DNA of 64,000 bases from Xanthostigma xanthostigma (Eukaryota; Arthropoda; Insecta; Raphidioptera; Raphidiidae). Below are positions 1 through 22,177 of this stretch, one piece after another (the first letter of the stretch is position 1; each line of letters begins with the position of its first letter). A program made the position numbers and the translations under genes. The notes below the pieces were generated by a model. That model was not told where the DNA came from. It saw nothing but the letters and a program-made list of their open reading frames with translations, and did not search any database. Where the stretch lies: NCBI GenBank assembly GCA_963575645.1, contig OY754468.1, positions 4,340,001 through 4,404,000 of the forward strand, given 5' to 3'.

Positions 1-1768
1 TATGGGTCACACTGATAAGGTTTCTCGGCGGTATGTTGAAGTTTGTGTCGATGTAAAGTGTATGATCGCGTGAAACGCTTATTACAAAGATCACATTGAA
101 AAGGTTTCTCGCCGGTATGTCGAAGTTTGTGCGCATTTAAAGTGGATGAATGAGCGAAACGCTTATTACAAAGGTCACACTGTTAAGGTTTCTCGCATGT
201 ATGTTGAAGTTTGTGTTTATTTAAATTGGATGACTGAGCGAAACGCTTATTACAAAGGTCACATTGATAAGGTTTCTCGCCCGTATGTTTAAGTTTGTGT
301 TTATTTAAATTGCTTGAATTAGCGAAACGCTTATTACAAAGATCACACTGGTAAGGTTTCTCGCCGGTATGTTGACGTTTGTGTGTATTTAAAGTGGATG
401 AATGAGCGAAACGCTTATTACAAAGATCACACTGATAAGGTTTCTCGCCGGTATGTCGAAGTTTGTGTGTATTTAAATTGGATGACTGAGTGAAACGCTT
501 ACTACAAAGATCACACTGATAAGGTTTCTCGCCGGTATGTTGACGTTTGTGTTTACTTAAATTGAATGACTGAGCGAAACGCTTATCACAAAGGTCACAT
601 TGATAAGGTTTCTCGCCGGTATGTTGAAGTTTGTGTCGATGTAAAATGAATGACCGAGCGAAACGCTTATCACAAAGGTCACATTGATAAGGTTTCTCGC
701 CGGTATGTTGAAGTTTGTGTCGATGTAAAATGAATGACCGAGCGAAACGCTTATTACAAAGATCGCATTGATAAGGTTTCTCGCCGGTATGTATTCGTTG
801 GTGGATCATTAATTCTTCGGATGTAACAAAGCATTTAATACAAACGTTGCATTTATATAGTTTTTTAATAGCATGACGTGTTCGCTTATGAAAGTACAAA
901 TCAGAACGACTTTGGTAGCACTTATTGCAAACATTGCATTGATACGATATCACTTTATTTGATTTTTTGTATTTCTTACGATTTATGGAAATGCGTCCTT
1001 TTGTTTCCTTACATCTACTCAAATTTCCGGTCTGATTCGCAGCACGGTCGCACAAATGCTGCGGTGCGTCGACAATATTGATCTTCGTATCTTTGCACCT
1101 AATTTTATTTACCCCGCCGTTAGATGAAGCGTTTTCCGTGTCATCGAATGATTCTGTTAGAATTAATGAAGTATCACCCGTATTTTTGTCATTGATTTTG
1201 GAATTTAACGATATTTCGTCCACGAATTTGTTCGCTACATTATAATTTTCAGGTTCTTGCTCTTTCCAATTGACAGTCGTTGTTTCGCTCACTTTAGTCT
1301 CACTTATGTCGATCTTAAAGTCTTCACAGATGAATTCTTCGTTGTCTATATTAGACGAAATGTCTTCTGTGTCAGTTGAGCATTCTGTTGGTAAAAAAAA
1401 TAAATTCTCGTCATCCGGTTCGACTTTGATTACGAATTCTGAACACATTTTTTGTTATTTGTATTTTCGTAAATTACATCTCCAGATCCCACCGCAATCC
1501 GATTAAGATTCGTGTCAAACACATCGTTTAGTTCTAAAGCTTCATTTTTCACAATAATATCATTATTAGTGTCAAGGATTAAATTCTCTTCGAAAGGTTG
1601 AACAGAACGTTCAGCCTTGACTGGTTTGTCAGAAACGCGTAATAGTTGAAGATAACGTTGGAGTGTTCTGTCAGACTGTTCTATTTGAGTCAGGAACTGA
1701 TGAGTTTCCTCCAGTTTAGTGTAACATGATTGGCAGATGAAATTCGGCTTTTCTTCGCCTCTGGATAT
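1..1768 (-). pseudogene. ZAD-C2H2 zinc-finger copy A, exon 2 (disabled; runs to the window edge)
   Basis: Paralogue of the gene at 16206-21898, aligned along its whole length. The acceptor (TCAG at 1772-1769) and phase are conserved, as are the second ZAD half, linker and fingers. Two lesions are visible. A 1-nt deletion near 1447-1452 shifts the frame between the GSGDVI-type segment and the MCSE-type segment. A TAA at 185-183 replaces the Tyr codon of a TGEKPY linker. Fingers continue in frame on the far side of that stop down to base 1, ending in the same CDP sequence as copy B. It keeps about 21 linker codons that copy B lacks. The array differs from copy B at helix positions (for example Phe at helix position 2 in several fingers). 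Two disabling changes here plus those in exon 1 make a functional full-length product unlikely; a finger-only protein starting at MCSE remains possible. Confidence 0.88.
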
Positions 1769-1914
1769 CTGACAATCGAGAAAAAAAATTATTATAATCA
1801 ATTTATTGATACATAACATTGTATTCGAAAAAAAATTCATAATAGGTAAGTTTCTCATTTTTCACTCTCTTAAAAATACAAAATTTGTAGCGAAAGAAAT
1901 TTTGGAATATTTTC

Positions 1915-2390
1915 AGAAACAAAGTTGTATTAATAAATAAAATTATCGACCAATTTTTCAGACAATATATTAACAAACAATATAAAATTAATACATTAAC
2001 GTTTCAATCCGGATTTGGATCTTCTTCAGAATTAATCTAAAAATATAAAAATAATTAATATTTAAATATAATTCGCTATTTAAAGAATGTTTTCAAAATT
2101 AATTATGAAATTCAAAATAATGAAAAAATAATAATAAACAATTTTTTTTCCATGACTACTTAATAAAAAATTGTTTATTATTATTTTTTCATTATTTTGA
2201 ATTTCATAATTAATTTTGAAAACATTCTTTAAATAGCGAATTATATTTAAATATTAATTATTTTTATATTTTTAGATTAATTAAGAAGATCCAAATCCGG
2301 ATTGAAACGTTAATGTATTAATTTTATATTGTTTGTTAATATATTGTCTGAAAAATTGGTCGATAATTTTATTTATTGAAGAGTTCTATT
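1915..2390. repeat. AT-rich foldback MITE (about 225-bp arms)
   Basis: Two arms of roughly 225 bp are near-perfect reverse complements around a short spacer near 2150-2165. Present in copy A only. Relatives with the same outer arm (AAATTGGTCGATAATTTTAT type) occur at 18565-18690 and 38870-39005, so this is a mobile family rather than a local accident. Confidence 0.8.
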
Positions 2391-2930
2391 CAGACGTTAA
2401 TCAAAGATTTCAAAGTTGTATTACTTCAAAGTTTATATTTGTCAATTCTCCGCGCTATTATTACATGAAATAGTACAAGAAAATACAATTTTAATAATAC
2501 TATTATACTATATAGATTATAGAGTAATGTTTTATAACAATGAAATTTAGTTAATAATTAAATGCATTCTAAAATAGGTAAATTCTGAATTTAATCAAAC
2601 CATTTTTTATTGGTTTAGCTTCTATTTCTGTCGCAATTTGAACTACAATTTAAATTGAAGAAAACAAATTATTTAATTACTTTTTCCTTTCATAAAACCT
2701 ATTATAAGAGGTTACTACACACTAGTGATCTGTACTACGTACCGCAACCATAGAGAATTCTTCGAAAAATAAATAAAAAAGACGAGAGGGGAACACCCGG
2801 TTAAAACGAAGCTCTTTTCGCTATTTTTGTTATCATATTATTTTTTAACTAATTTTTCTATAATTTATTCGATTAACCAAAAATTAGTCGTGTGATTTGC
2901 AACTCTAAAAAAATAAAAATAACATTTTTT

Positions 2931-3000
2931 GCGCATCTGTCGGAAATCGAACCTGGGACACCCGCATGGCAGATGAGTATTCTGAACCATTGATATTGCT
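2931..3000 (-). repeat. tRNA-Gly(GCC)-derived segment of an interspersed repeat
   Basis: The minus strand resembles tRNA-Gly: an A-box-like AATGGTTCAG, an anticodon loop around CTGCCAT, and a B box GGTTCGATTTCCGA. The 5' acceptor strand does not pair and six bases of the D-arm are missing relative to the copy at 19099, so this is not a working tRNA. It lies inside a repeat shared by both ZAD introns. Confidence 0.6.
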
Positions 3001-3410
3001 TAGATATCGCTATGTATATAGGTTTAATAATAAATCGTGAAGTTAGAAGGCGTTGCATTTCACAAAATATTAATGTCAAAAAACTAACTAATATTTAAAA
3101 TGACATCCGTTTTTGAACAAATGCAATCTTTTTATTTTAAGACAGAACATACGCAATCTTTAAATGTCCATAACACACCGTGTAAGAGAAAAGGATAATC
3201 GATCCACGTGCGCGATGTATTAGGCAAAATCGAATTTACACAGTGATTATTTCTGATTTTTAAAAACTATTTACGCAAATTCTGTTATACGAAATCTATG
3301 TAAAATGTTCTCCTCTTTCGTTTAAGACAGGTTTCGAACCGATCTGATTTAAATTGAACGAATTATAAGCAAACAACTTTTTTGTTTTCAATTTACTCCC
3401 CTCTGTACCA

Positions 3411-3539
3411 AAAAGTATAATTACTGCTTTTTATCGATAAAAACTTTTGAACGGTAAACTAAGATGAATGTGCGTACTCATGTGCCTCCCTTCCCCATTC
3501 GTTCTTTTGCACCCGGGTGAAACCGGGCGAGACCGCTAG
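3411..3539 (+). mobile_element. Helitron 3' terminal fragment
   Basis: About 130 bp matching the 3' ends of the full Helitrons in this window (CACCCGGGTGAAACCGGGCG) and ending CTAG followed by T. Only the 3' end is present; copy B has unrelated sequence here. Confidence 0.6.
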
Positions 3540-4039
3540 TTAGTTATAAATCAAATTCATGTCAATACAGAAGTGAAATTAGCGATGTTGATGATGAAAA
3601 AAGAAAACGTAATATGTATGATTTAATGCATAGATTCTGTCAATTTCTCTTATTTGAGTTTGTGCTTCTTGAATAGCCTCCATGAAAATGAACAACTTTG
3701 ATATTACAACATAGTTCTATTTCCCAGGTCTGTGTTCTTCGTTGTTCTCGGGCCGACCGAACATTGGTCCGTATCGTATGTGGTCCCGCGTACAAAATAA
3801 AAATTAGGGTCCAGTACGATAACTCGATGTGCCCAAATTTTGACTTTTTTTAAGTTACAGAAAACAAAAAATTTTGACGTGTCACAAAAAAAACTGCGGA
3901 ATATTCACAAATTTTCTCAAAAATACGTAAAAACTTTTCATCTTTCACTGTTATTTTTTGAATCTAAACAATCAGAAATCACATGTACACGTCATAATAA
4001 CTGGTGCAGAATTACTGTATTACTATCTCACTTTGTATA

Positions 4040-4345
4040 CACGACCCCGTAATTGTTTTTTAGAGAACTCCCCCCAAACGCCCTCCACATTTCACTGCGC
4101 AAAAAAAGCCATCGCATCGACACGACCCCCTAACTGTTTTTAAATAACTCCTTCTAGACGCGTTCCCCTTTTCACTGCGCCAAAAAAATGCCATCGCATC
4201 GACACGACCCCGTAATTGTTTTTTTAAAAACACCTCGCCCTTTGCACTGCGCAAAAAAAACGCCATCGCATCGACACGACCCCGTAATTGTTCTTAAAAA
4301 AACTTCCACCAGACGCCTTCATCTTTTCACAGCGCAAAAAAAAAA
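4040..4345. repeat. about 80-bp minisatellite, about 4 units
   Basis: Imperfect tandem units of the form CACGACCCCGTAATTG...CTTTTCACTGCGCAAAAA...CATCGCAT. The same unit sits inside the same larger repeat at 20375, 51855 and 62876 with different copy number. Confidence 0.8.
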
Positions 4346-4845
4346 TTTATAAAAATCAATTTTCCGCACTTAAAACGGCTAATAACACTGTTTTATATTA
4401 TATAAAATAATCATTGTGTATTTCCAATGGATATTTTGCACATTGTGTTATCGTACATTAACCCAATTTTTTTTATCAAATTCAAAAACACCACTGAAAA
4501 TGTCTATTTTCCATAAGAGCCCTAGTAAAAATTGCAAAACTTTGATAACGATTTTTTAAATCGGAATAGGTTCATATTATTTGTATTTGCTGAAATAACA
4601 ATCAAGAAAAGTTTTGGTCAAATCCTTTGAATAGTAATTTCACGTAACAATGACCTTAAAAGAAATTCATTGTGTAAGTTTGGGCTCGATAATAAATGAT
4701 GTATTAATGTAACGTTTGAAGATACTAATAAATATGTATCATTATTTAAATAATGTTGATTTCTTACTGATATACGACATAAACTATAATGCCATTTCAA
4801 ATCGAAACGCTGTATTGCTAATAATCTTTGAAAAATAGAACTTAC

Positions 4846-4994
4846 CTGTACAGCAGCACATTTCATAATAACACCAGCCAACCTATTATTCATTTTCGAT
4901 GAATAATAAAATATATCTAACAGTGTTACGCCACTCGATAAGCACAATCGACACTTGTACTTAATCCAGATCCAATTATCGATATTTATTTCAT
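4846..4994 (-). pseudogene. ZAD-C2H2 zinc-finger copy A, exon 1 (start codons lost)
   Basis: Counterpart of 21749-21898. The first ATG (4994-4992) is followed after one codon by TAA. A 1-nt deletion near 4954-4957 puts the ZAD segment (CRLCLSSG) into another frame and changes the second ATG to AAG, so neither start of copy B reaches the ZAD here. The splice donor (CAG then GTAAGT) is kept. An unseen upstream exon could rescue the frame, but none is visible before the LTR element at 5314. Confidence 0.85.
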
Positions 4995-5221
4995 AATTTT
5001 AATTTAAAAAATGTTGCTACAGAAACAGTCACAAACTTCACGGTATTATAACTGATCTCTGATTAGTGGATAGTGAATCAAGGCAGTGATAGACCGTGGA
5101 TCTGGTACAGATGTCGCTAAAAGCTGTTATTTGAAAAAAAAAGTTGGTAAACTCACGAATTTGAGTTTAATATTAATTAATTTTAGGATATTTAGGATTG
5201 ATTTTTGACTACGGCATTCAA

Positions 5222-5313
5222 ATCCGAGGGAGAAGAAAGATCTGTATCCGTTAGTTTTTGACGGATCTTTTACCTTATTAATTTTCAATTCATAGATGAA
5301 ATTTTATATATAG
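5222..5313 (-). mobile_element. hAT-like MITE, part 1 (interrupted by the LTR element)
   Basis: Matches, in reverse, the interior of the MITE at 43708-44083 (CGAGGGAGAA...GTATCCGTTA). It resumes at 9389 after the LTR element; one 5' terminus is missing. It marks the right edge of homology between ZAD copies A and B. Confidence 0.65.
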
Positions 5314-5510: not shown

Positions 5511-5639
5511 TTCGGCCATACTGACCATAAGTCGTGTCCTCGCGACTTCTTCATATTTCGTCCTGACTCTGTAAAAGTAACAAAATTAATTAGTCCGCCT
5601 CTGCTTCCACAGACGCTTTAGTCTTTTACTTCTTTAGTG

Positions 5640-6605
5640 TCCTACTACAGTTGGCACTGCACATAGAAACACCAACGCATACCCAGGTCAATCATTGATA
5701 CCATAGGTTAGCAACTCAAACCGGGTTCTACAACAGTTAACCACTGCACCATAGAAACGCCGTACCATACCTAAGTCATTCATTGACAACCATAGGTTAG
5801 CAACTCAAACCGGGTCCTACTACAGTTAACACTGCACAATAGAAACGCCGTACCATACCTAAGTCATTCATTGACTACCATAGGTTAGCAACTCAAACCG
5901 GGTCCTACTACAGTTAACACTGCACAATAGAAACGCCGTACCATACCTAAGTCATTCATTGACTACCATAGGTTAGCAACTCAAACCGGGTCCTACTACA
6001 GTTAACACTGCACAATAGAAACGCCGTACCATACCTAAGTCATTCATTGACTACCATAGGTTAGCAACTCAAACCGGGTCCTACTACAGTTAACACTGCA
6101 CAATAGAAACGCCGTACCATACCTAAGTCATTCATTGACAACCATAGGTTAGCAACTCAAACCGGGTCCTACTACAGTTAACACTGCACAATAGAAACGC
6201 CGTACCATACCTAAGTCATTCATTGACAACCATAGGTTAGCAACTCAAACCGGGTCCTACTACAGTTAACACTGCACAATAGAAACGCCGTACCATACCT
6301 AAGTCATTCATTGACAACCATAGGTTAGCAACTCAAACCGGGTCCTACTACAGTTAACACTGCACAATAGAAACGCCGTACCATACCTAAGTCATTCATT
6401 GACAACCATAGGTTAGCAACTCAAACCGGGTTCTACTACAGTTAACACTGCACAATAGAAACGCCGTACCATACCTAAGTCATTCATTGACAACCATAGG
6501 TTAGCAACTCAAACCGGGTCCTACTACAGTTAACACTGCACAATAGAAACGTCGTACCATACCTAAGTCATTCATTGACAACCATAGGTTAGCAACTCAA
6601 ATCGA
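5640..6605. repeat. 88-bp satellite, about 11 units
   Basis: Successive CGGGTCC motifs at 5811, 5899, 5987 and on to about 6515 are exactly 88 bp apart. Each unit runs through CACTGCACAATAGAAACGCC and CATTGACAACCATAGGTTAG. The leftmost two units are the most diverged and the inner ones nearly identical, as expected for unequal exchange. Confidence 0.92.
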
Positions 6606-6609
6606 TCTT

Positions 6610-7715
6610 CGTCATACAGGCTCACTGGACTAGTGTCAGCGCACTCGATCTGTGCCAGCACACAGGTCTGCGTCGTCCTTACGACCTTTGTCAGCAACTT
6701 GACTTGCAACAGCACGCTCGACCTGCGTCAGCACATTGGAACCGCGTCAGCACGCTCGACCCGCGTCAGCACGCTCGCTCTGTGTGTGCATGCTCGCCCT
6801 GTCAGCACGCTGGACCTGCGTCAGCACGCTCGCCCTACGTCAGCTCGCTCGACCTGTATCTGCATGCTCGACCTGTGTCAGCACGCTGGACCTGCGTCGG
6901 CACGCTCGCCCTACGTCAGCTCGCTCGACCTGTGTCTGCATGACCGACCTGTGTCAGCATGCTCGCCCTGTTAGCACGCTGGACCTGCATCAGCACGCTC
7001 GCCATACGTCAGCTCGCTCGAACTGTGTCTGCATGCTCGACATGTGTCAGCACGCTCGACCTGCGGCAGCACACTGGACTCGCGTCAGCACGCTGGACTC
7101 GCGTCAGCACGCTGGACCTGCGTCAGCACGCTGGACCTGCGTCAGCACACTGGACCCGCGTCAGCACGCTGGACCTGCGTCAGCACGCTGGACCTGCGTC
7201 AGCACGCTGGACTCGCGTCAGCACGCTCGACTTGCAGCAGCAAGCTGGACCTGCGTCAGCACACTGGACTCGCGTCAGCATGCTGGACCTGTGTCAGCAC
7301 GCTCGACTTGTGTCTGCATGCTCGCCCTGTCAGCACTCTGGACCTGCGTCAGAACGCTCGACTCGCAGCAGCAAGCTCGACCTGGAGCAGCACGCTGGAC
7401 TGGCAGCAGCACGCTGGACCTGCGTCAGCACGCTGGATGCGTCTGCATGCTCGAACTGCGTCAGCACACTGGACTCGCGTCAGCACGCTGGACCTGTGTC
7501 AGCACGCTCATCTTGTGTCTGCAATGTCGCCCTGTCAGCACTCTAGACCTGCGTCTGCACACTGGAGTCGCGTCAGCACGCTCGACTCGCAGCAGCAAGC
7601 TCGACCTGGAGCAGCACGCTCGACCTGCAGCAGCACGCTCAACTTGTGTCTGCATGCTCGCCCTGTCAGCATGCTGGACCTGCGTCGGCATTCTGAATTG
7701 TGTTCTTCTGTAGCT
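6610..7715. repeat. 19-bp minisatellite inside the LTR element
   Basis: Nearly 60 tandem variants of GTCAGCACGCTGGACCTGC. Because 19 is not a multiple of 3 and no phase of the unit contains a stop, all three plus-strand frames stay open for hundreds of codons. The predicted peptides are cyclic permutations of each other and are artefacts. Confidence 0.9.
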
Positions 7716-10387: not shown

Positions 10388-10464
10388 AGTTTATATGAGA
10401 GGCGTTCAACGCGCGTTGGCCCAACGCGCGTTTACAATTTCTATACAATTGTGTAGAACTGTCT
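10388..10464. repeat. fragment of the CCTAGTTTATATGAGAGGCG MITE family
   Basis: Starts GGCCTAGTTTATATGAGAGG and includes an internal palindrome of CAACGCGCGTTGG type. The same sequence, inverted, forms the right part of the palindrome ending at 22722. Confidence 0.6.
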
Positions 10465-11066
10465 TTCATGATTAATATTTAATATCCATAGCAAAGAAAA
10501 ACCATTTGCCGGAATTGCGAGAATTAATTGACTAATTTATAGTTTAGATGAGTTTAGTTACAGTTAGTAATTGTTATAATTTTTTACAGAGTAGCTACTG
10601 TTTGCTACAATTGTTAAGAAACACCCATTGTTACAACGCTATTAACATAGAAAAATTAGTTTATTTTTTCAAACAATGTCACCGTCGGGATACGAACCCC
10701 GAATCTTTCCACTCTCGCGGCGGACTGAGTTACATTTTAATGTTACATTACAATGTTACATTAAAATGTAACTCAGTTAATGTTACATTAAAATGTAACT
10801 CAATCCGCCGCGAGAGTGGAAAGATTCGGGGTTCATATCCCGACGGTGACATTGTTTAAAAAAATAAACTAATTTTTCTATGTTGATAGCGTTGTAACAA
10901 TGGGTGTTTCTTAACAATTGTAGCAAACAGTAGCTACTCTGTAAAAAATTATAATAATTACTAACTGTAACTAAACTCATCTAAACTATAAATTAAAGTC
11001 AATTGATTCTCGCAATTCCGGCAAATGGTTTTTCTTTGCTATGGATACTAAATATTAATCATGAAA
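10465..11066. repeat. about 600-bp palindrome with a tRNA-like B box in each arm
   Basis: Arms of about 290 bp are near-perfect reverse complements (TTCATGATTAATATT...and its mirror ending at 11066). Each arm holds GGGGTTCRTATCCCGAC, a B-box-like motif, beside ACTCTCGCGGCGG. The centre is a short run of ATGTTACATTAAAATGTAAC variants. Two SINE-like units head-to-head, or a foldback element that captured one. Confidence 0.75.
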
Positions 11067-12120
11067 TACCAATCGTAAAAGTAAAGATGTACCCAAAAAA
11101 GGGGCTGTAAATAACAAAAGATAAAATTTAAATGTAGACATGCAATGCTAGTTTTAAGTTGTAAATATTTTAAATATAAAAAATATTGTCTGAAAACACA
11201 AGTAATTCAAGAATTACAAGGCGCGAATTTTACATAATATACCCCAACGTTATGTTCGAAAATTGATGTATATTTTTAACGACACTTTGAGCTTAATAAT
11301 ATAATTTAATTAACTTAATCTAATAAAAAAATAACAGTTGAAAGTATTGAAACACAGAAAGGAAAAAATCATTTTAATAATTTATTAATAATTAATTTAG
11401 GTTCATAAATATAAAAGCGTTAGCTGTAAACTCTATGATCGTTTATTAGTCACAATCAATAATATAAATTATTGTGACCCTAAATTATAAAAATTATATT
11501 TTCTTTTTGGTACATTTCAATAAAAACTTTCTTTTTATTAGTATTTTATTTTTCTTGTTTTTATAGTCTTTCAAAATTTTAACTATTATGACATTAAATT
11601 ATAAAAATTATTTGATTATTTTATTCAAGATGGTTGAGAAGGAAAAGGTATTCCGTCATCTTGGGGCATCCGCCATATTGGATATATACATTGTCACCAG
11701 ACTTGCATGTGTGTGAAATTTCAAAGCTTTAGTTAATTTAATCTAGTCGAACAAATTGCAGCAATTAGATTATGGGGCCTTTCCAACTAATAAATTATAA
11801 TATTGACATTTGACATATAATAGATAACAAAGAAAATAAAATTTTCGTTAACGCGTATAGTTACCACTAAATATTATAAAATTTGCTGTTCGTGTTCATG
11901 GTTTTCTATATGTTATCACGTTATGATGTTAAAAATAAACAAAGAATGCTTGTCAAATACCTAACTAACATCTACGGAACAAACTAACATTAGATTTTTT
12001 TTATTTTCAAAATATTTCTGAAACTAAGTACAAATTTAGAAAAACACATTTTTTCATGACTATCTTGTAAAAATATACAGGCTAATAAACTGTTATGACA
12101 TGTAAGTATATGATAATTAT
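11067..12120. other. AT-rich, no gene recognised
   Basis: No open frame of note and no repeat termini that I can define. Confidence 0.5.
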
Positions 12121-14740: not shown

Positions 14741-15462
14741 TTAAGAGTGAATGATAAAAAATTATAAGTATTAAAAGAATATAATTGTAGCCCCGCAAAG
14801 ACGGGTAATTATAAAAATGATGATGATGAAAGTATAAGAATTTATAAGGTATTTTAAAAAATGCAATTGCAAACCCGCCAATATGGGCAATTGTAGAAAA
14901 TAATTAAAGAATAGAAAAAGGTATAAAATATTAAATGAATGAATGAGGGGTAACGCATAATATAAAATAGAAATAATAGAAATGATAGAAAAAATTAACA
15001 AAGTCCGAATGTAATGAAATGGTATATAAATTACTTACTTTGAAGAAATAAAATCGAATTCTGATTAATTTAATATTAAGTAAAATTTTATAAACGGAGT
15101 CAAATTATAAAGAAATTATATGTAAAGTGGAAAATGATTTGAAATTAGCATAGTTAAGAAATAATTTGAATTTATAACATATTAAAATAATTTGGAAATA
15201 TAAAAATGTAAAATAATTTTGAAGGCAAAGAATAAAAAGTTGAAATCTATATTTTAGGCTAAGTTAGCTATAAGTTAAGCAAATAGAAATTGAATTTAAA
15301 TATATTTAGATTGAACAAAAAATTGAATTTAAATACAATGTTGTTTTAATGTCTAAAGAAAAGAAATGCAGTTATCAATAATAGCGTTGATATCTGCTCA
15401 GAAGACGGGCGTTCCCGTCTTCATACACACTGCGTGAAGACACGGGGGAACGTTACAATTTA
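14741..15462. other. AT-rich, no gene recognised
   Basis: No convincing gene. A small GACGGGCGTTCCCGTC hairpin lies at about 15405, just before the zinc-finger relic. Confidence 0.5.
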
Positions 15463-15588
15463 TATTGGATGACTGAGCCGAACCATTTACAAATGTCACA
15501 CTGATAAGGTTTCTCGCCGCTATGTTGAAGTTTGTGATTATTTAAATTGGCTGACTGCGCGAAATGATTATTACAATGATCACACCAT
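15463..15588 (-). pseudogene. stranded zinc-finger module and original 3' end of ZAD copy B
   Basis: Reads CDHCNNHFAQSANLNNHKLQ on the minus strand, then an [11 protein letters not shown] linker and a final partial finger ending in TAA. It is in frame as a continuation of the array that stops at 16206 and is separated from it only by a LINE. TCACAC sits on both sides of the LINE, consistent with a target duplication. It is therefore the amputated tail of copy B. The last partial finger has lost its register (KWFGSV), probably by a small deletion. Confidence 0.8.
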
Positions 15589-16204
15589 AGATAGATAGAT
15601 TTATTGGTTTTAGTTATACAAAAAAAAAAATGTTAAAAACACGTCAAAAGAGAAAAAAAATATATAATATACAATGTTAGGGTGCATTGTCCATCTCTAA
15701 AAATTCTTGGTACCTATAAAATAAAATAAAATATTTAGGTATAGTTTTTTTTTTTTAATTTTATGAGTCAGGTTTCTAGTGGCCAAAGACAGTTTGTTAA
15801 AAAATTGTAAACCTAAGTAATTAGAACCAAAAGTTGAATTTTTTGTTAGAAAAAAAGGAATGATAAGATTTTCTTTTCTTCATGTAGTGTAATGCTGCAG
15901 GAAAATATGACTATTAAATTTATCTAAATGTTTTTTAACAAATATCAAATTGTTATAAATATACTGAGCTGGTAAAGTAAAACTATTTAAATAAATAAAC
16001 AATAATATAGACATAAGTAAGTAGAGTACACTAGTTCGTATGCATGCCACAAGTGAAAGTCCCCTCAGTTGAGAGAGAGAACGCTGCAGAAAACCAGATA
16101 TTTGTTTACTCAAAACAGCATTGTTTTGTATCATTAGTTACCATAGAGATAAGGTACTGGTCTCTCTCTGAATTGAAGACACTTTCACGCCTTTTTACAA
16201 TATA
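15589..16204 (-). mobile_element. 5'-truncated LINE splitting the finger array
   Basis: Minus-strand LINE 3' end. The tail is ATAGATAGATAG at the left boundary, as in the LINE at 27602. A short frame contains TLPAQYIYNNLIFVKKHLDK, typical of the region after the RT domain. The 5' end is truncated. Insertion gave copy B a new stop codon at the junction. Confidence 0.75.
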
Positions 16205-16205
16205 T

Positions 16206-17909
16206 CTATGGGTCACACTGATACGGTTTCTCACTTGTATGTTGACGCTTATGTTTATTTAAATTGCATGAATGAGCGAAACGCTTATCACAAAAGTCAC
16301 ACTGATAAGGTTTCTCGCCGGTATGTTGACGCTTGTGTGTATTTAAATTGGATGAGTGAGCGAAACGCTTATTACAAAGGTCACACTGATAAGGTTTCTC
16401 ACCGGTATGTTGACGTTTGTGAGAATTTAAATTGGATGACTGAGCGAAACGCTTGTTACAAAGGTCACACTGATAAGGTTTCTCGCCGGTATGATGAAGT
16501 TTGTGTTTCTTTAAATTGCCTGAATTAGCGAAACGCTTATTACAAAAGTCACACTGATAAGGTTTCTCGCCGGTATGTTGACGCTTGTGTGTATTGAAAT
16601 TGGATGACTGAGCGAAACGCTTGTTACAAAGATCGCATTGATAAGGTTTCTCGCCGGTATGTCGAAGTTTGTGTGTATTTAAAGTGGATGACTGAGCGAA
16701 TCGCTTATTGCCAAGGTCACACTGATAAGGTTTCTCGCCGGTATGTTGAAGTTTGTGTGTATTTAAAGTGGATGACTGAGCGAAACGCTTATTACAAAGG
16801 TCACACTGATAAGGTTTCTCGCCGGTATGATGAAGTTTGTGTTTATTTAAATTGCCTGAATTAGCGAAACGCTTATTACAAAGGTCACACTGATAAGGTT
16901 TCTCGCCGGTATGTTGAAGTTTGTGTCGATGTAAAATGGATGACCGAGAGAAACGCTTGTTACAAAGGTCACATTGATAAGATTTCTCTCCGGTATGTAT
17001 TCGTTTGTGGATCTTTAATTCTTCGGATGACACAAAGCATTTAATACAAAAGTTGCATTTATATAGTTTTTTAACAGCATGTGTTCGCTTATGAAAGTAC
17101 AAATCAGAACGACTTTGGTAGCACTTATTGCAAACATTGCATTGATACGATATCACTTTATTTGATTTTTTGTACTTCTTACGATTTATGGAAATGCGTC
17201 CTTTTGTTTCCTTACATCTACTCAAATTTCCGGTCTGATTCGCAGCACGGTCGCACAAATTCTGCGGTACGTCGACAATATTGATCTTCGTATCTTTGCA
17301 GCTAATTTTATTTACCCCGCCGTTAGATGAAGCGAATTCCGTGTCATCGAATGATTCTGTTAGAATTAATGAATTATCACTATAATTTTCAGGTTCTTGC
17401 TCTTTCCAATTGACAGTCGTTGTTTCGCTCACTTTAGTCTCACTTATGTCGATCTTAAACTCTTCACAGATGAATTCTTCGTCGTCTATATTAGACGAAA
17501 TGTTTTCTGTGTCAGTTGCGCATTCTGTTGGTAAATAAAATAAATTCTCGTCATCCGGTTCGACTTTGATTACGGATTCTGAACACATTTCTTTGTTACT
17601 TTTATTCTCGTTAATGACATCTCCAGATCCCACCGCATTCCGATTAAGATCCGTGTCAAACACATCGTTGAGCTCTAAAGTTTCATTTTTCACAATAATA
17701 TCATTAATAGTGTCAAGGATTAAATTCTCTTCGGAAGGTTGAACAGAACGTTCAGCCTTGACTGGTTTGTCAGAAACGCGTAGTAGTTGAAGATAACGTT
17801 GGAGTGTTCTGTCAGACTGTTCTATTTGAGTCAGGAACTGATGAGTTTCCTCCAGTTTAGTGTAACATGATTGGCAGATGAAATGCGGCTTTTCATCGCC
17901 TCTGGATAT
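16206..17909 (-). CDS. ZAD-C2H2 zinc-finger protein, copy B, exon 2 (second half of ZAD, linker, 11 fingers)
   Basis: Second and last coding exon of a predicted 617-aa nuclear DNA-binding protein; joined to 21749-21898. It opens after a pyrimidine-rich tract and an AG at 17911-17910, in phase 0, and ends at TAG 16208-16206. It supplies the second ZAD cysteine pair (ICQSC, about residues 61-65), then an acidic linker with two SUMO-type motifs (VKAE near 101; IKVEP near 165) and a basic stretch RKKYKK before the array. Eleven C2H2 fingers follow (about residues 305-610) with [10 protein letters not shown] linkers in near-identical 84-bp modules. One finger reads QCDLGNKRF, so a zinc-binding Cys is Gly. 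ZAD domains dimerise and the fingers bind DNA in this family; the target is unknown. The array ends abruptly after QCDP at the junction with a LINE. Compared with copy A it lacks about 21 codons in the linker. ZAD-ZNF identity is very secure; expression is not shown. Confidence 0.93.
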
Positions 17910-18051
17910 CTGACATTCGAGAAAAAAAATTATTATAATCAAATTATTGATACATAACATTGTATTCGAAAAAAATTCTTAATAGGTAAATTTCTCATTT
18001 TTGACTCTTTTAAAAATACAAAATTTGTAACGAAAGAATTTTTGGTATATA

Positions 18052-18473
18052 CAGGGTGAAAAGTATAATTATGTCATGCTCTAGAGGGTGGATAGAGATC
18101 GCGGAGACAAGCATTTTTAGTATAAGAACCCATGTCCGGAAATGCACCGTTACGGAGTTAGTGCGCCGGGTGTCGGGAAGACAAAGGTGATGGAAAACGG
18201 GCTCTGAAACGTTTGGCCTGTACAGTTTACTGTAATAAATGTTAACAAAACATTAGAGTACACTGGCAGGCTACAAAACTAAACAATTACAACTTTGAAA
18301 AGAACGATACGGCGAAAAACGGTTGGTACAGTACAGATCTTGTTGGAGAGTACAGTACATTTAAAGCAGGTGTTCGATGTGATTTCGATGCATGGGTTCT
18401 TATACTAAAAATGCTTGTCTCCGCGATCTCTATCCACCCTCTAGAGCATGACATAATTATACTTTTCACCCTG
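18052..18473. mobile_element. MITE with about 90-bp inverted repeats, TA target
   Basis: Ends CAGGGTGAAAAGTATAATTA and its reverse complement, flanked by TA. The arms extend about 90 bp. Absent at the same point in copy A. TA target and CAGGG ends suggest a Tc1/mariner-type origin. Confidence 0.8.
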
Positions 18474-18564
18474 TATATTTTCAGAAACACAGTTGTATTA
18501 CCTACTTTTATTATTAGATGAAATATTACAAGAAAATGCAATTTTAATAATACTATTATACTAT

Positions 18565-18690
18565 GTAGGGTAATTCAAATCTTTGATTAACGTCTGAATA
18601 GAATCTTTTGTAATATAGATTTATAATTTGATTTTTGTCAATATATAGTCTGAAAAAAATTGGTCAACAATTTTATTTATTTATATAGGG
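18565..18690. repeat. short copy of the 1915-2390 MITE family
   Basis: Contains TTGATTAACGTCTGAATAGA and an AATTGGTCAACAATTTTATT-type arm. Inserted at a site that is empty in copy A; copy A carries its own family member elsewhere. Confidence 0.6.
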
Positions 18691-19098
18691 TAATGTTTTA
18701 TAATAATGAAATTAAGTTAATAATATAATGTATTCTAAAATAAGTAAATTCTGAATTTAATCAAAACATATGGTTTAGCTTCTATTTCTGTCGCAATTTG
18801 AACTACAATAATTTTTATCTGAAGAAAACAAATTATTTAAGTACTTTTTCCTTTCACAAAACCTATTATAAGAGGTTACTACTCAATAGTGATCAGTACT
18901 ACGTACCGCAACCATGGAGAATTCTTCGAAAATTAAATAAAAAAGACGAGAGGTGTCGTGGAACACCCGGTTAGAACGAAGTCCTTTCGCTATTTATTTA
19001 TCATATTATTTTTTAACTAATTTTTCTAAAAATTACTCGATTAAACAAAAATTAGTCGTGTGATTTGCAACTCTAAAAAAATAAAAATAACATTTTTT

Positions 19099-19174
19099 GC
19101 GCATCTGTCGGGAATCGAACCTGGGACACCCGCATGGCAGATGAGTATTCTAACACTGAACCATTGATATTGCT
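19099..19174 (-). repeat. tRNA-Gly(GCC)-derived segment, copy B
   Basis: Same element as at 2931, with a more complete D-arm (GGTTCAGTGTTAGAAT) and B box GGTTCGATTCCCG. The acceptor 5' strand (GCAATAT) does not match the 3' strand (CAGATGC), so it reads as a SINE-like tRNA relic and not as a functional tRNA gene. Confidence 0.6.
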
Positions 19175-20374
19175 TAGATATCGCTATTTATATAGGTTTA
19201 ATAATAAATCGTGAAGTTAGAAGGCGTTGCATTTCACAAAATATTAATGTCAAAAAACTAACCAATATTTGAAATGACATCCGTTTTTGAACAAATGCAA
19301 TCTTTTTATTTTAAGACAGAACATACGTAATCTTTAAATGTCCATAACACACCGTGTAAGAGAAAAGGATAACCGATCCACGTGCGCGATGTATTAAGCA
19401 ATATACAGTGATTATTTCTGCTTTTTAAAAACTATTTACGCAAATTCTGTTATACGAAATCTATGTAAAATGTTCTCCTCTTTCGTTTAAGACAGGTTTC
19501 GAACCGATCTGATTTAAATTGAACGAATTATAAGCGAACAGCTTTTTTGTTTTCAATTTGCTCCCCTCTGGGACCAAAATTAAAAAATAAGGCCCCGTTA
19601 GGATCTGTCCCATGCCCTATATTATAAGTGTGCAAAATTTCAACTTTATAATATGTCTACGGGTAGGTAGGTAATTATATATTATGTAGATTTTCGTTAC
19701 AGATTTTCTCTACGCCTTTTTCTTTGCGTTTTTTTTCTAGCCCTCTCCATTTATACCTATAACGTTCCATAAGGAACTTCGTTCCAATAAGTTAACCTGT
19801 TTTAATTCAAGTAAACAAATAACGAAAATTTATTACCACAGCAAAATTAAAATGACATTTGGAAGTTAGTTATAAATCAAATTCATGTCAATACAGAAGT
19901 GAAATTAGCGATGTTGATGATGAAAAAAGAAAACGTAATATGTATGATTTAATGCATAGATTCTGTCAATTTCTCTTATTTGAGTTTGTGCTTCTTGAAT
20001 AGCCTCCATGAAAATGAACAACTTTGATATTACAACATAGTTCTATTTCCCAGGTCTGTGTTCTTCGTTGTTCTCGGGCCGACCGAACATTGATCCGTAT
20101 CGTTTGTGGTCCCGCGTACAAAATAAAAATTAGAGTCTAGTACGATAACTCGATGTGCCCAAATTTGACATTCTTTAAGTCATAGATAACGCTAAATTCG
20201 TTCAAAAGAAAAAAAACTTTGCGGATTATTCACAAATTTGCTCAAAAATACGTAAAAACTTTTCGTCTCTCACTGTCATTTTTTTTTAATCTAACCAATC
20301 AGAAATCACTTACACACGTCATAATAACTGGTGCAGAATAACTGTATTACTATCTCACTTTGTATGTACACGAC

Positions 20375-20520
20375 CTCGTAATTGTTTGTAAAAGAACTAC
20401 CCCAAACGCCCTCCCCTTTTCAACTGCGCAAAAACAAAACGACATCGCATCGACACGACCCCGTAATTGTTTTTTAAAGAACGTCCCCCAGACGCCTTCT
20501 TTTCACTGCGCATTAAAAGA
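20375..20520. repeat. about 80-bp minisatellite, 2 units
   Basis: Copy B version of the array at 4040-4345, with two units instead of about four, in the same place within the intron. Confidence 0.75.
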
Positions 20521-20953
20521 ATAATTTATAAAAATCAATTTTTCGCACTTAAAACGGCTAATAACACTGCTTTATACTATATAAAATAATAATTGTGTAT
20601 TTTCAAAGGATATTTTGCACATTGAGTTATCGTACTCTAACCCAATTTTTTTATCAAATTCCTTTAAAGCGTTCTGAATTAATTTGAAAAAAACTCGACT
20701 AAAAATACCTATTTTCCATAAGAGCCCATGTTTAAATTGCAAAACGTTGATAACGTTTTTTTTAATCGGAATAGGTTCATATTATTTGTATTTGATGAAA
20801 TAACAATCAAGAAAAGTTTTGGTGAAATCCTTTGGATAGTAATTTCACGTAACAACTACCTTAAAAGAAATTCATTGTGTAAGTTTGGGCTCGATAATAA
20901 ATGATGTATTAATGTAACGTTTGAAGATGCTAATAAATATTTATCATTATTTA

Positions 20954-21638
20954 AGATAAGATAAGATAAGATTTTATTGTCATATTATAAAAGTAAGTTA
21001 CAATTTTACATATTTTTATATTCTGGTTCCTTATTAATTACCCAGTGGAATAAGCTTAATGCTAACATAAATGTTGTTTATTTGTAGACTTATGTGTTAC
21101 CATTTTTTATTTTTTTTGTATATAGGGAAAAGTTAAAAAAAAAAACCCTACGCTAGATAATATTGAATATAATTAGCTATTTCATGAATCTGGTTTTAAG
21201 ATGCTTTTTATCCTTTTATGCTTATATGTATCAGTTATCTTATAATTACCTATTTTAAATTTGTTTTGATTTATTCTGTTGGTGAAAAATTTGTTTGCTT
21301 GTTTCCGAATATGGTTTAAAATTAGTTCTATGTTAATATCTGAGTGTAATTGAGATATTCGGGTATACCGGGGGTAGTTTCCAATAATTCTTAAACTTTT
21401 GTTTTGAACTATCTGAAGCTTTTTTAGATTAGTTTTGCAAGTGAGGCTCCATACTGGAGAAGCATATATAATTATGGACCTAATAATTGATTTGTATATA
21501 ATTAGCTTATTTTTAATTGATAATTTTGATTTTTTGTTAAGTAGAGGGAATAAGTTTGACATAACCCCTAAGGCTTTGTCACAGGATTTGTTTATATGAT
21601 GCGTAAAATTTAATTTTTTATCCAAATAAACCCCTAAG
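20954..21638 (-). mobile_element. Jockey-type LINE 3' fragment with 12-bp target duplication
   Basis: Target duplication TATCATTATTTA at 20942-20953 and 21639-21650. The tail is a TTATC-type repeat (minus sense). The coding part (21625-21182) includes LDKKLNFTHHI-like and YASPVWSLTC motifs found after the RT domain of Jockey-clade elements. Absent from copy A, so it post-dates the locus duplication. Confidence 0.85.
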
Positions 21639-21748
21639 TATCATTATTTAAAAAACGTCGATTTCTTACTGATATACAACATAAACTATAATGCCATTTC
21701 AAATCGCAACACTGTATTTGCTAATAATCTTTGAAAAATAGAACTTAC

Positions 21749-21898
21749 CTGTACAGCAGCACATTTCATAATAACACCAGCCAACCTATTCTTCATTTTC
21801 GATGAAGAATAAAATATATCTAACAGTGTTACGCCACTCGATAAGCACAATCGACACATCGTACTTAATCCAGATCCAATTATCGATATTTCTTTCAT
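21749..21898 (-). CDS. ZAD-C2H2 zinc-finger protein, copy B, exon 1 (first half of ZAD)
   Basis: First coding exon, 50 codons, of the gene completed by 16206-17909. It begins ATG at 21898; a second ATG at codon 14 lies directly before the ZAD motif MCRLCLS. Cys15 and Cys18 are the first ZAD zinc ligands; Cys62 and Cys65 come from exon 2. The exon ends CAG followed by GTAAGT, a near-perfect donor, in phase 0, matching the phase-0 acceptor 3.8 kb away. Splitting the ZAD between two exons fits the spacing expected for the domain. Either ATG could be the start; the upstream one is chosen because the frame is open from it. No TATA box or other promoter element is obvious upstream. Confidence 0.9.
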
Positions 21899-22140
21899 AA
21901 TTTTAATTTAAGAAAATGTTATGTTGCCACAGAAACAAAGTCACAAATTTCACGGTACTGATACTGATCTCTGATTAGTGGATAGTGAATCGAGGCAGTG
22001 ATGTTATAGCGTGGACGAATGAACCTGGTACAGATGTCGCTAAAAGCTGTTATTTGAAGAAAAAGTTGGTGAACTCACGAATTTGAGTTTAATATTAAAT
22101 TTTAGGATATTTAGGATTGATTTTTGACTACGGCATTCAA
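21899..22140 (-). promoter_or_regulatory. 5' flank shared by ZAD copies A and B
   Basis: About 240 bp upstream of the copy B start, conserved beside copy A up to about 5220, where homology stops at a MITE. It should hold the proximal promoter, but no TATA box or clear initiator stands out. Called by position and conservation only. Confidence 0.35.
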
Positions 22141-22177
22141 AGGTATTTGCTGCAAAATAATTGTAAATTATTAAGAA

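Follow-up and report, generated by a model that had tools for sequence, protein, structure and literature searches.

We examined a 64,000-nucleotide stretch of the genome of the raphidiopteran insect Xanthostigma xanthostigma (contig OY754468.1, here C5, positions 4340001–4404000; "the window"), which contains two minus-strand copies, A and B, of a gene of the ZAD and C2H2 zinc-finger class, and searched the genome (623 Mb, 28 contigs) for relatives of its parts. The sequence very probably records three successive events: insertion of a short DNA transposon with terminal inverted repeats (TIRs), which brought a stop codon into the finger array, duplication of the shortened gene to give A and B, and insertion of a long interspersed nuclear element (LINE) into copy B. 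A reading made earlier from the letters of the window, without database searches (the sequence-only reading), had noticed that the array of copy B ends in CDP-stop, as it does at 16208–16206 of the minus strand, and had proposed that the LINE cut the array and gave the gene this stop. That a transposable element did so holds, and the agent was the TIR element, not the LINE.

The stop codon and its source

The array of copy B is followed by an insert of 625 bp between target-site duplications (15586–16210). This insert is composite, as 15586–16003 is mostly the 3' end of a LINE and 16004–16210 belongs to a different element. A genome search with the insert (46 matches; 40 of 2864 candidates scored) led from query bases 1–418 to one repeat family, at 81–89%, and from base 420 on to another. 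The features at the two sites are as follows.

16206..16208, minus strand: new stop TAG of copy B, bases 3–5 of the CATAG end of the TIR element, read GAC C/CA TAG
16211..16218: right target-site duplication of copy B, GGTCACAC
15578..15585: left target-site duplication of copy B, GATCACAC, one mutation from GGTCACAC
15586..16210: MITE-like TIR element of copy B (MITE, miniature inverted-repeat transposable element), split by the LINE into a left remnant (about 15586–15589) and a right part (16004–16210)
15590..16003, minus strand: 5'-truncated 3' end of the LINE, with a C-terminal remnant of the reverse transcriptase, a 3' untranslated region (UTR) and a (TCTA)n tail; ends uncertain by a few bases
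C5:4339770..4340004: TIR element of copy A, 235 bp, its right end at base 4 of the window
1..12: junction of copy A, TATGGGTCACAC, consisting of TATG, the 4 bp with which the TIR element ends (1–4), and the duplication GGTCACAC (5–12)

The site in copy A decides which element made the stop. The sequence-only reading had recognized the same junction at the start of the window and expected a LINE beside it. When the contig DNA to the left of window base 1 was read, the same finger was found to run into GGTCACAC, then 235 bp of the form CATATAGATAT...ATATCTCTATG, then GGTCACAC again, with no LINE, which is the outcome that the sequence-only reading had itself named as refuting its proposal. This element aligns to the second part of the copy B insert, with the LINE as a single gap in A; LINE residue was sought in it by alignment and none was found, the element reading straight through the LINE site. 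The sense reading of copy A is likewise GAC C/CA TAG, the TAG beginning the sense reading of the element. Since the short element is present at both sites, the sequence shows that it, and not the LINE, supplied the stop, in the gene from which A and B both descend. In copy B the LINE is close to the stop, and the composite insert has TCACAC on both sides, but it is highly unlikely that the LINE itself made the cut. Junction and stop are the same in copy A, where there is no LINE, and in copy B the LINE is separated from the array by 207 bp of another element, one that occurs genome-wide and makes the stop with its end; the array had been thought to end at the LINE boundary. The LINE as cutting agent was rejected on the DNA left of the window. 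With at most one mismatch allowed, a junction pattern, TCTATGNGTCACANTGATAAGG, was found in the whole genome only at A and B, and a third copy of the gene bearing this junction was rejected on that result; four further places match with two mismatches.

The short element is, by its ends and target sites, a MITE-like non-autonomous TIR DNA transposon ending CATAG...CTATG. In a search for its family, in which 40 of 2873 first-look candidates were scored, all 40 places matched (one of them copy A), with matches starting at bases 1–11 and ending at bases 242–253 of the 253-base query. Most family copies have the inverted repeats CATAGAGATAT...ATATCTCTATG at their two ends, those of A being CATATAGATAT...ATATCTCTATG. 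Thirty copies, including A, were fetched to measure target duplications, and five were dropped when the end motif was not found. The remaining 25, A among them, are 219–247 bp long with TIRs that start CA and end TG, and in 21 of them the two 8-bp flanks differ at no more than one position (11 agree exactly), compared with 2 of 600 control cross-pairings. Their target sites favour G at position 1 (18 of 25), T at 2 (14), A at 7 (18) and C at 8 (18). Short length, CA...TG TIRs, an 8-bp duplication and high copy number are shared with MITEs of the superfamilies that duplicate 8 bp, and we take hAT and P, from the duplication and the ends, as candidate relatives. A target duplication of 6 bp was rejected because the family copies show 8 bp. 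The TCACAC reported earlier on both sides (15580–15585 and 16213–16218) is present as part of the 8-bp duplication GATCACAC / GGTCACAC, and only these six bases had been visible because the left duplication of copy B carries one mutation.

Order of the insertions and the duplication

In the history that we propose, a non-autonomous TIR transposon of about 235 bp entered GGTCACAC, where one of the last fingers of the ZAD–C2H2 gene begins; its terminal CATAG set a TAG in frame at the insertion point, and the last fingers were lost from the protein, as the sequence of the site shows. The truncated gene was then duplicated within a segment that measured at least about 5.7 kb, the length of copy A, and the two copies as they stand show that A decayed and B kept its frame. 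Copy A (about 1–5222 of the window) matches copy B (16207–22141) with interruptions, and the match extends left to C5:4339551. Finally the LINE would have integrated, presumably by the usual target-primed route, at the left end of the TIR element of copy B, where its insertion is observed.

Judged from the alignment of the two sites, the LINE is a nested insertion inside the TIR element, in copy B only. Its constant 3' end, with the (TCTA)n tail, is found at 28 of 29 other loci, which match from query position 1–3; the exception (L029) matches from base 48. Two relatives, L014 and L016, have a frame of 609 amino acids, which in L014 contains RVT_1 at 1.7e-33, and copy B keeps only its C-terminal end. 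The LINE frame of the insert beats 100 of 100 shuffles against two of the four LINE-like open reading frames (ORFs) in the window; against the remaining two, 49 and 86 of 100 shuffles scored equally well. The target-site duplication of the LINE is ATA or so, which is ambiguous against the (TCTA)n tail. At another locus (L006, C11:21315658-21319073) a LINE of the same family lies beside pieces of the same TIR element, and the nesting in copy B may not be unique.

Because it is cleanly absent from copy A, the LINE most likely arrived after the duplication and hence cut nothing. The earlier suggestion of an insertion before the duplication thus survives for the TIR element, which is in A and B, and fails for the LINE, which is in B only. 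Within the element, the six derived bases that A and B share, which date from before the duplication, are fewer than those private to each copy since then (17 in A and 15 in B). The LINE differs by 6.9% from the consensus of its eight nearest relatives, which is compatible with insertion after the duplication. The same figure is similar in size to the divergence between A and B, and would also fit a LINE that predated the duplication, or was polymorphic at that time, and that copy A lost or never inherited. We regard this order as improbable: no LINE residue remains at the LINE site in the element of copy A, and LINEs are rarely lost precisely.

Two independent insertions of the same TIR family into GGTCACAC, one in A and one in B, would explain the low identity of the two elements (0.844), and near variants of the target word do recur among the fingers of the array. 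This is nevertheless scarcely tenable, as the finger, the register and the orientation are identical in A and B, the junction at one mismatch or fewer occurs just twice in the genome, and the elements share rare derived bases. They have six derived bases in common, four of which occur in none or one of 29 other copies, whereas neither A nor B shares more than three with any other copy. In the tree of TIR copies A and B are joined with moderate support (88/73), a pairing found in 92% of 200 bootstrap trees. Independent double insertion was rejected on the shared rare bases, the junction found only at A and B and the grouping in the tree.

Several observations weigh against the order TIR element, duplication, LINE. 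Among the other 29 copies the top pair also shares six derived bases (mean 0.52), and the support of 88/73 for A and B falls under the starred threshold. The identity of 0.844 between the elements is lower than that of the tail (0.925), the linker (0.964) and the introns (0.90–0.95), although part of this excess divergence comes from an A-rich tract in the element of A and from the altered right end of that of B. Reshuffling has affected the array near the site, where the final complete 84-bp units of A and B are only 76% alike. As for the LINE, its 6.9% exceeds half of the divergence between A and B, and a clock fails to prove it the younger.

Lost fingers and the state of copy B

The fingers beyond the insert can be compared with two paralogues on the same contig, both oriented opposite to A and B: C, at about 4456 kb, and D, at about 4470 kb. 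Both arrays are uninterrupted; that of C has 13 fingers and the native end ...SILFTHKRIHTR-stop-stop, that of D nine fingers and the native end ...SVLCRHRRIHTR-stop-stop (HTR-stop-stop in each), and a relative on C13 ends ...SILRNHKR-stop. Paralogue C serves as the empty-site relative of A and B. When the insert is deleted in silico from copy B, the flanks rejoin in frame and in the 84-bp register, into a further finger:

15501..15584, minus strand: cut-off finger CDHCNNHFAQSANLNNHKLQH, which probably corresponds to finger 11 of paralogue C
15453..15500, minus strand: decayed start of the next finger (CDIC...), with TAA at 15453–15455; array homology ends at about 15457

An in-frame finger beyond the insert, as the sequence-only reading had described, is thus recovered; the TAA said to follow it lies at 15453–15455 and not at 15463, and is probably a product of decay, because the indels in that finger are not the same in copy A as in copy B. 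At the protein level the cut-off fingers of A and B (AQSANLINHKLQH and AQSANLNNHKLQH), followed by CDIC, match finger 11 of C (AQSANLNGHKLQH), also followed by CDIC. DNA identity gives no unique partner, being 0.881 between the tail finger of B and finger 11 of C and 0.893 with four other C fingers; for the tail finger of A the values are 0.857 with finger 11 and up to 0.881 with others. If the match to finger 11 is right, the ancestor would have had about three more fingers past the insertion point. A second break at about 15457, common to A and B, took away the native end of the array, and the 81 bases past it were found in A and B only, among the matches listed (best 40 of 519 candidates). 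This post-array sequence occupies 15377–15457 in B, where it includes a palindrome, GAAGACGGGCGTTCCCGTCTTC, and C5:4339551–4339640 in A.

The two copies differ in their state. Copy B with exons 1 and 2 joined matches the Pfam zf-AD family at 51.4 bits (cut-off 28), and the gene in the window matches zf-C2H2 at 9.8e-43.

21749..21859, minus strand: copy B exon 1, with the ATG start codon and the N-terminal half of the ZAD; protein start MCRLC, 3' end CAG/GTAAGT
16206..17909, minus strand: copy B exon 2, preceded by a ...TGTCAG acceptor, with the rest of the ZAD, the linker, 11 C2H2 fingers, a partial finger and CDP-TAG
5..1790, minus strand: exon 2 of copy A, a pseudogene, with a 1-bp frameshift near 1465 and an in-frame TAA at 183–185
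15600..15605, minus strand: AATAAA inside the LINE, 603 nt past the new stop, a sequence match only
15754..15759, minus strand: ATTAAA inside the LINE, a sequence match only

Copy A is a pseudogene, which in exon 1 (near 4957) has also lost its ATG. The spliced frame of copy B is 604 codons and one stop. Whether the truncation produced a working protein can be argued both ways, and we give about even chances to copy B being a dying gene, its intact frame a remnant and nothing remodelled by the truncation. Finger 6 of B is broken by a Cys to Gly change (CDLG), and its linker has a 63-bp in-frame deletion at 17378–17380 relative to A, C and D. In the linker (276 codons compared, 3 skipped) the B lineage has 3 synonymous and 8 nonsynonymous substitutions, which leaves constraint unclear, and pseudogene A has 3 and 16, the last few changes of A lying at the end of the alignment; one further change is ambiguous. 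On the other side, B retains its ATG, its two splice sites and every one of its 604 codons while its sister A lost its ATG and acquired a frameshift and a nonsense codon, and a stop would result from about 5.6% of single substitutions in B. The pairwise ratio of nonsynonymous to synonymous rates (dN/dS) between A and B is 0.94 in the linker and 0.36 over the fingers, the latter being hard to read as it is confounded by exchange between fingers. Selective constraint on B was not detected by dN/dS or by the lineage counts, in which the changes are too few. The notion that a retrotransposon had remodelled a working regulator is not borne out, A being a pseudogene and B an intact frame with no demonstrated constraint.

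The LINE lies in what would be the new 3' UTR of copy B and may have given it its 3' end, possibly with a poly(A) signal, because AATAAA and ATTAAA, both borne by the LINE, are the only canonical signals between the stop of B and 15371. A canonical signal was sought in the 462 nt past the stop of A and none was found. If B is still made, it would bind DNA with a shorter array than that of C. A more tentative proposal, which we hold at somewhat below even chances, is that the element-made stop was retained in a ZAD regulator that still works in shortened form, its C-terminus provided by the MITE end and its 3' UTR and poly(A) site by the nested LINE, and that its DNA specificity would now be unlike that of C and D.

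The window holds other repeats. In intron 1 of copy B, a second B-only insertion at 20959–21635 is missing at the matching place in A (about 4733–4753) and contains an ORF (21182–21640) that by eye we take to look like a LINE C-terminus; Pfam gave no family. The same intron has a fold-back insertion at 18047–18478, with 88-bp perfectly inverted arms containing TATACAGGGTG and no match in copy A. Near-perfect palindromes lie at 1932–2377, in intron 1 of copy A (96% over 449 columns), and at 10461–11069 (95% over 612 columns), and neighbouring minisatellite arrays with long repetitive open frames, the first repeating about every 88 bp, at 5639–7690.

Comparison with known systems

The locus is a clear but rather commonplace example of a gene shortened by mobile DNA. 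Its interest lies in a record of TIR element, duplication and LINE that can be put in order, and for which the same cluster supplies an empty-site relative; from it one can see how a tandem-finger gene can lose its terminal fingers at one stroke. It also cautions that a conspicuous repeat beside a breakpoint need not have caused it. An open-access literature search, of limited wording, turned up nothing relevant on finger genes with a stop made by a mobile element. The insertion in the Drosophila gene CHKov1 is reportedly the element Doc, which is a LINE. In a review (PMC10926513), element insertions in CHKov1 and Veneno are described as truncating the gene products, and the case presented here is alike in that a transposable element in a coding exon alters the product, with a possible new function. 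It differs from Veneno, for which the same text names Doc as the element, in that a short DNA transposon appears responsible, and from both in that CHKov1 and Veneno come with transcript or resistance data (PMC10926513) whereas the present case is known from sequence alone. For ZAD–C2H2 genes of flies, a second article (PMC4351887) reports fast change and notable divergence in the residues that contact DNA, and for KRAB finger genes it describes duplication in clusters, the formation of pseudogenes and the loss of binding domains. Compared with the fly ZAD–C2H2 genes as described there (PMC4351887), what can be read here is a single step, the loss of terminal fingers to the end of a transposon, made legible by an empty-site paralogue.
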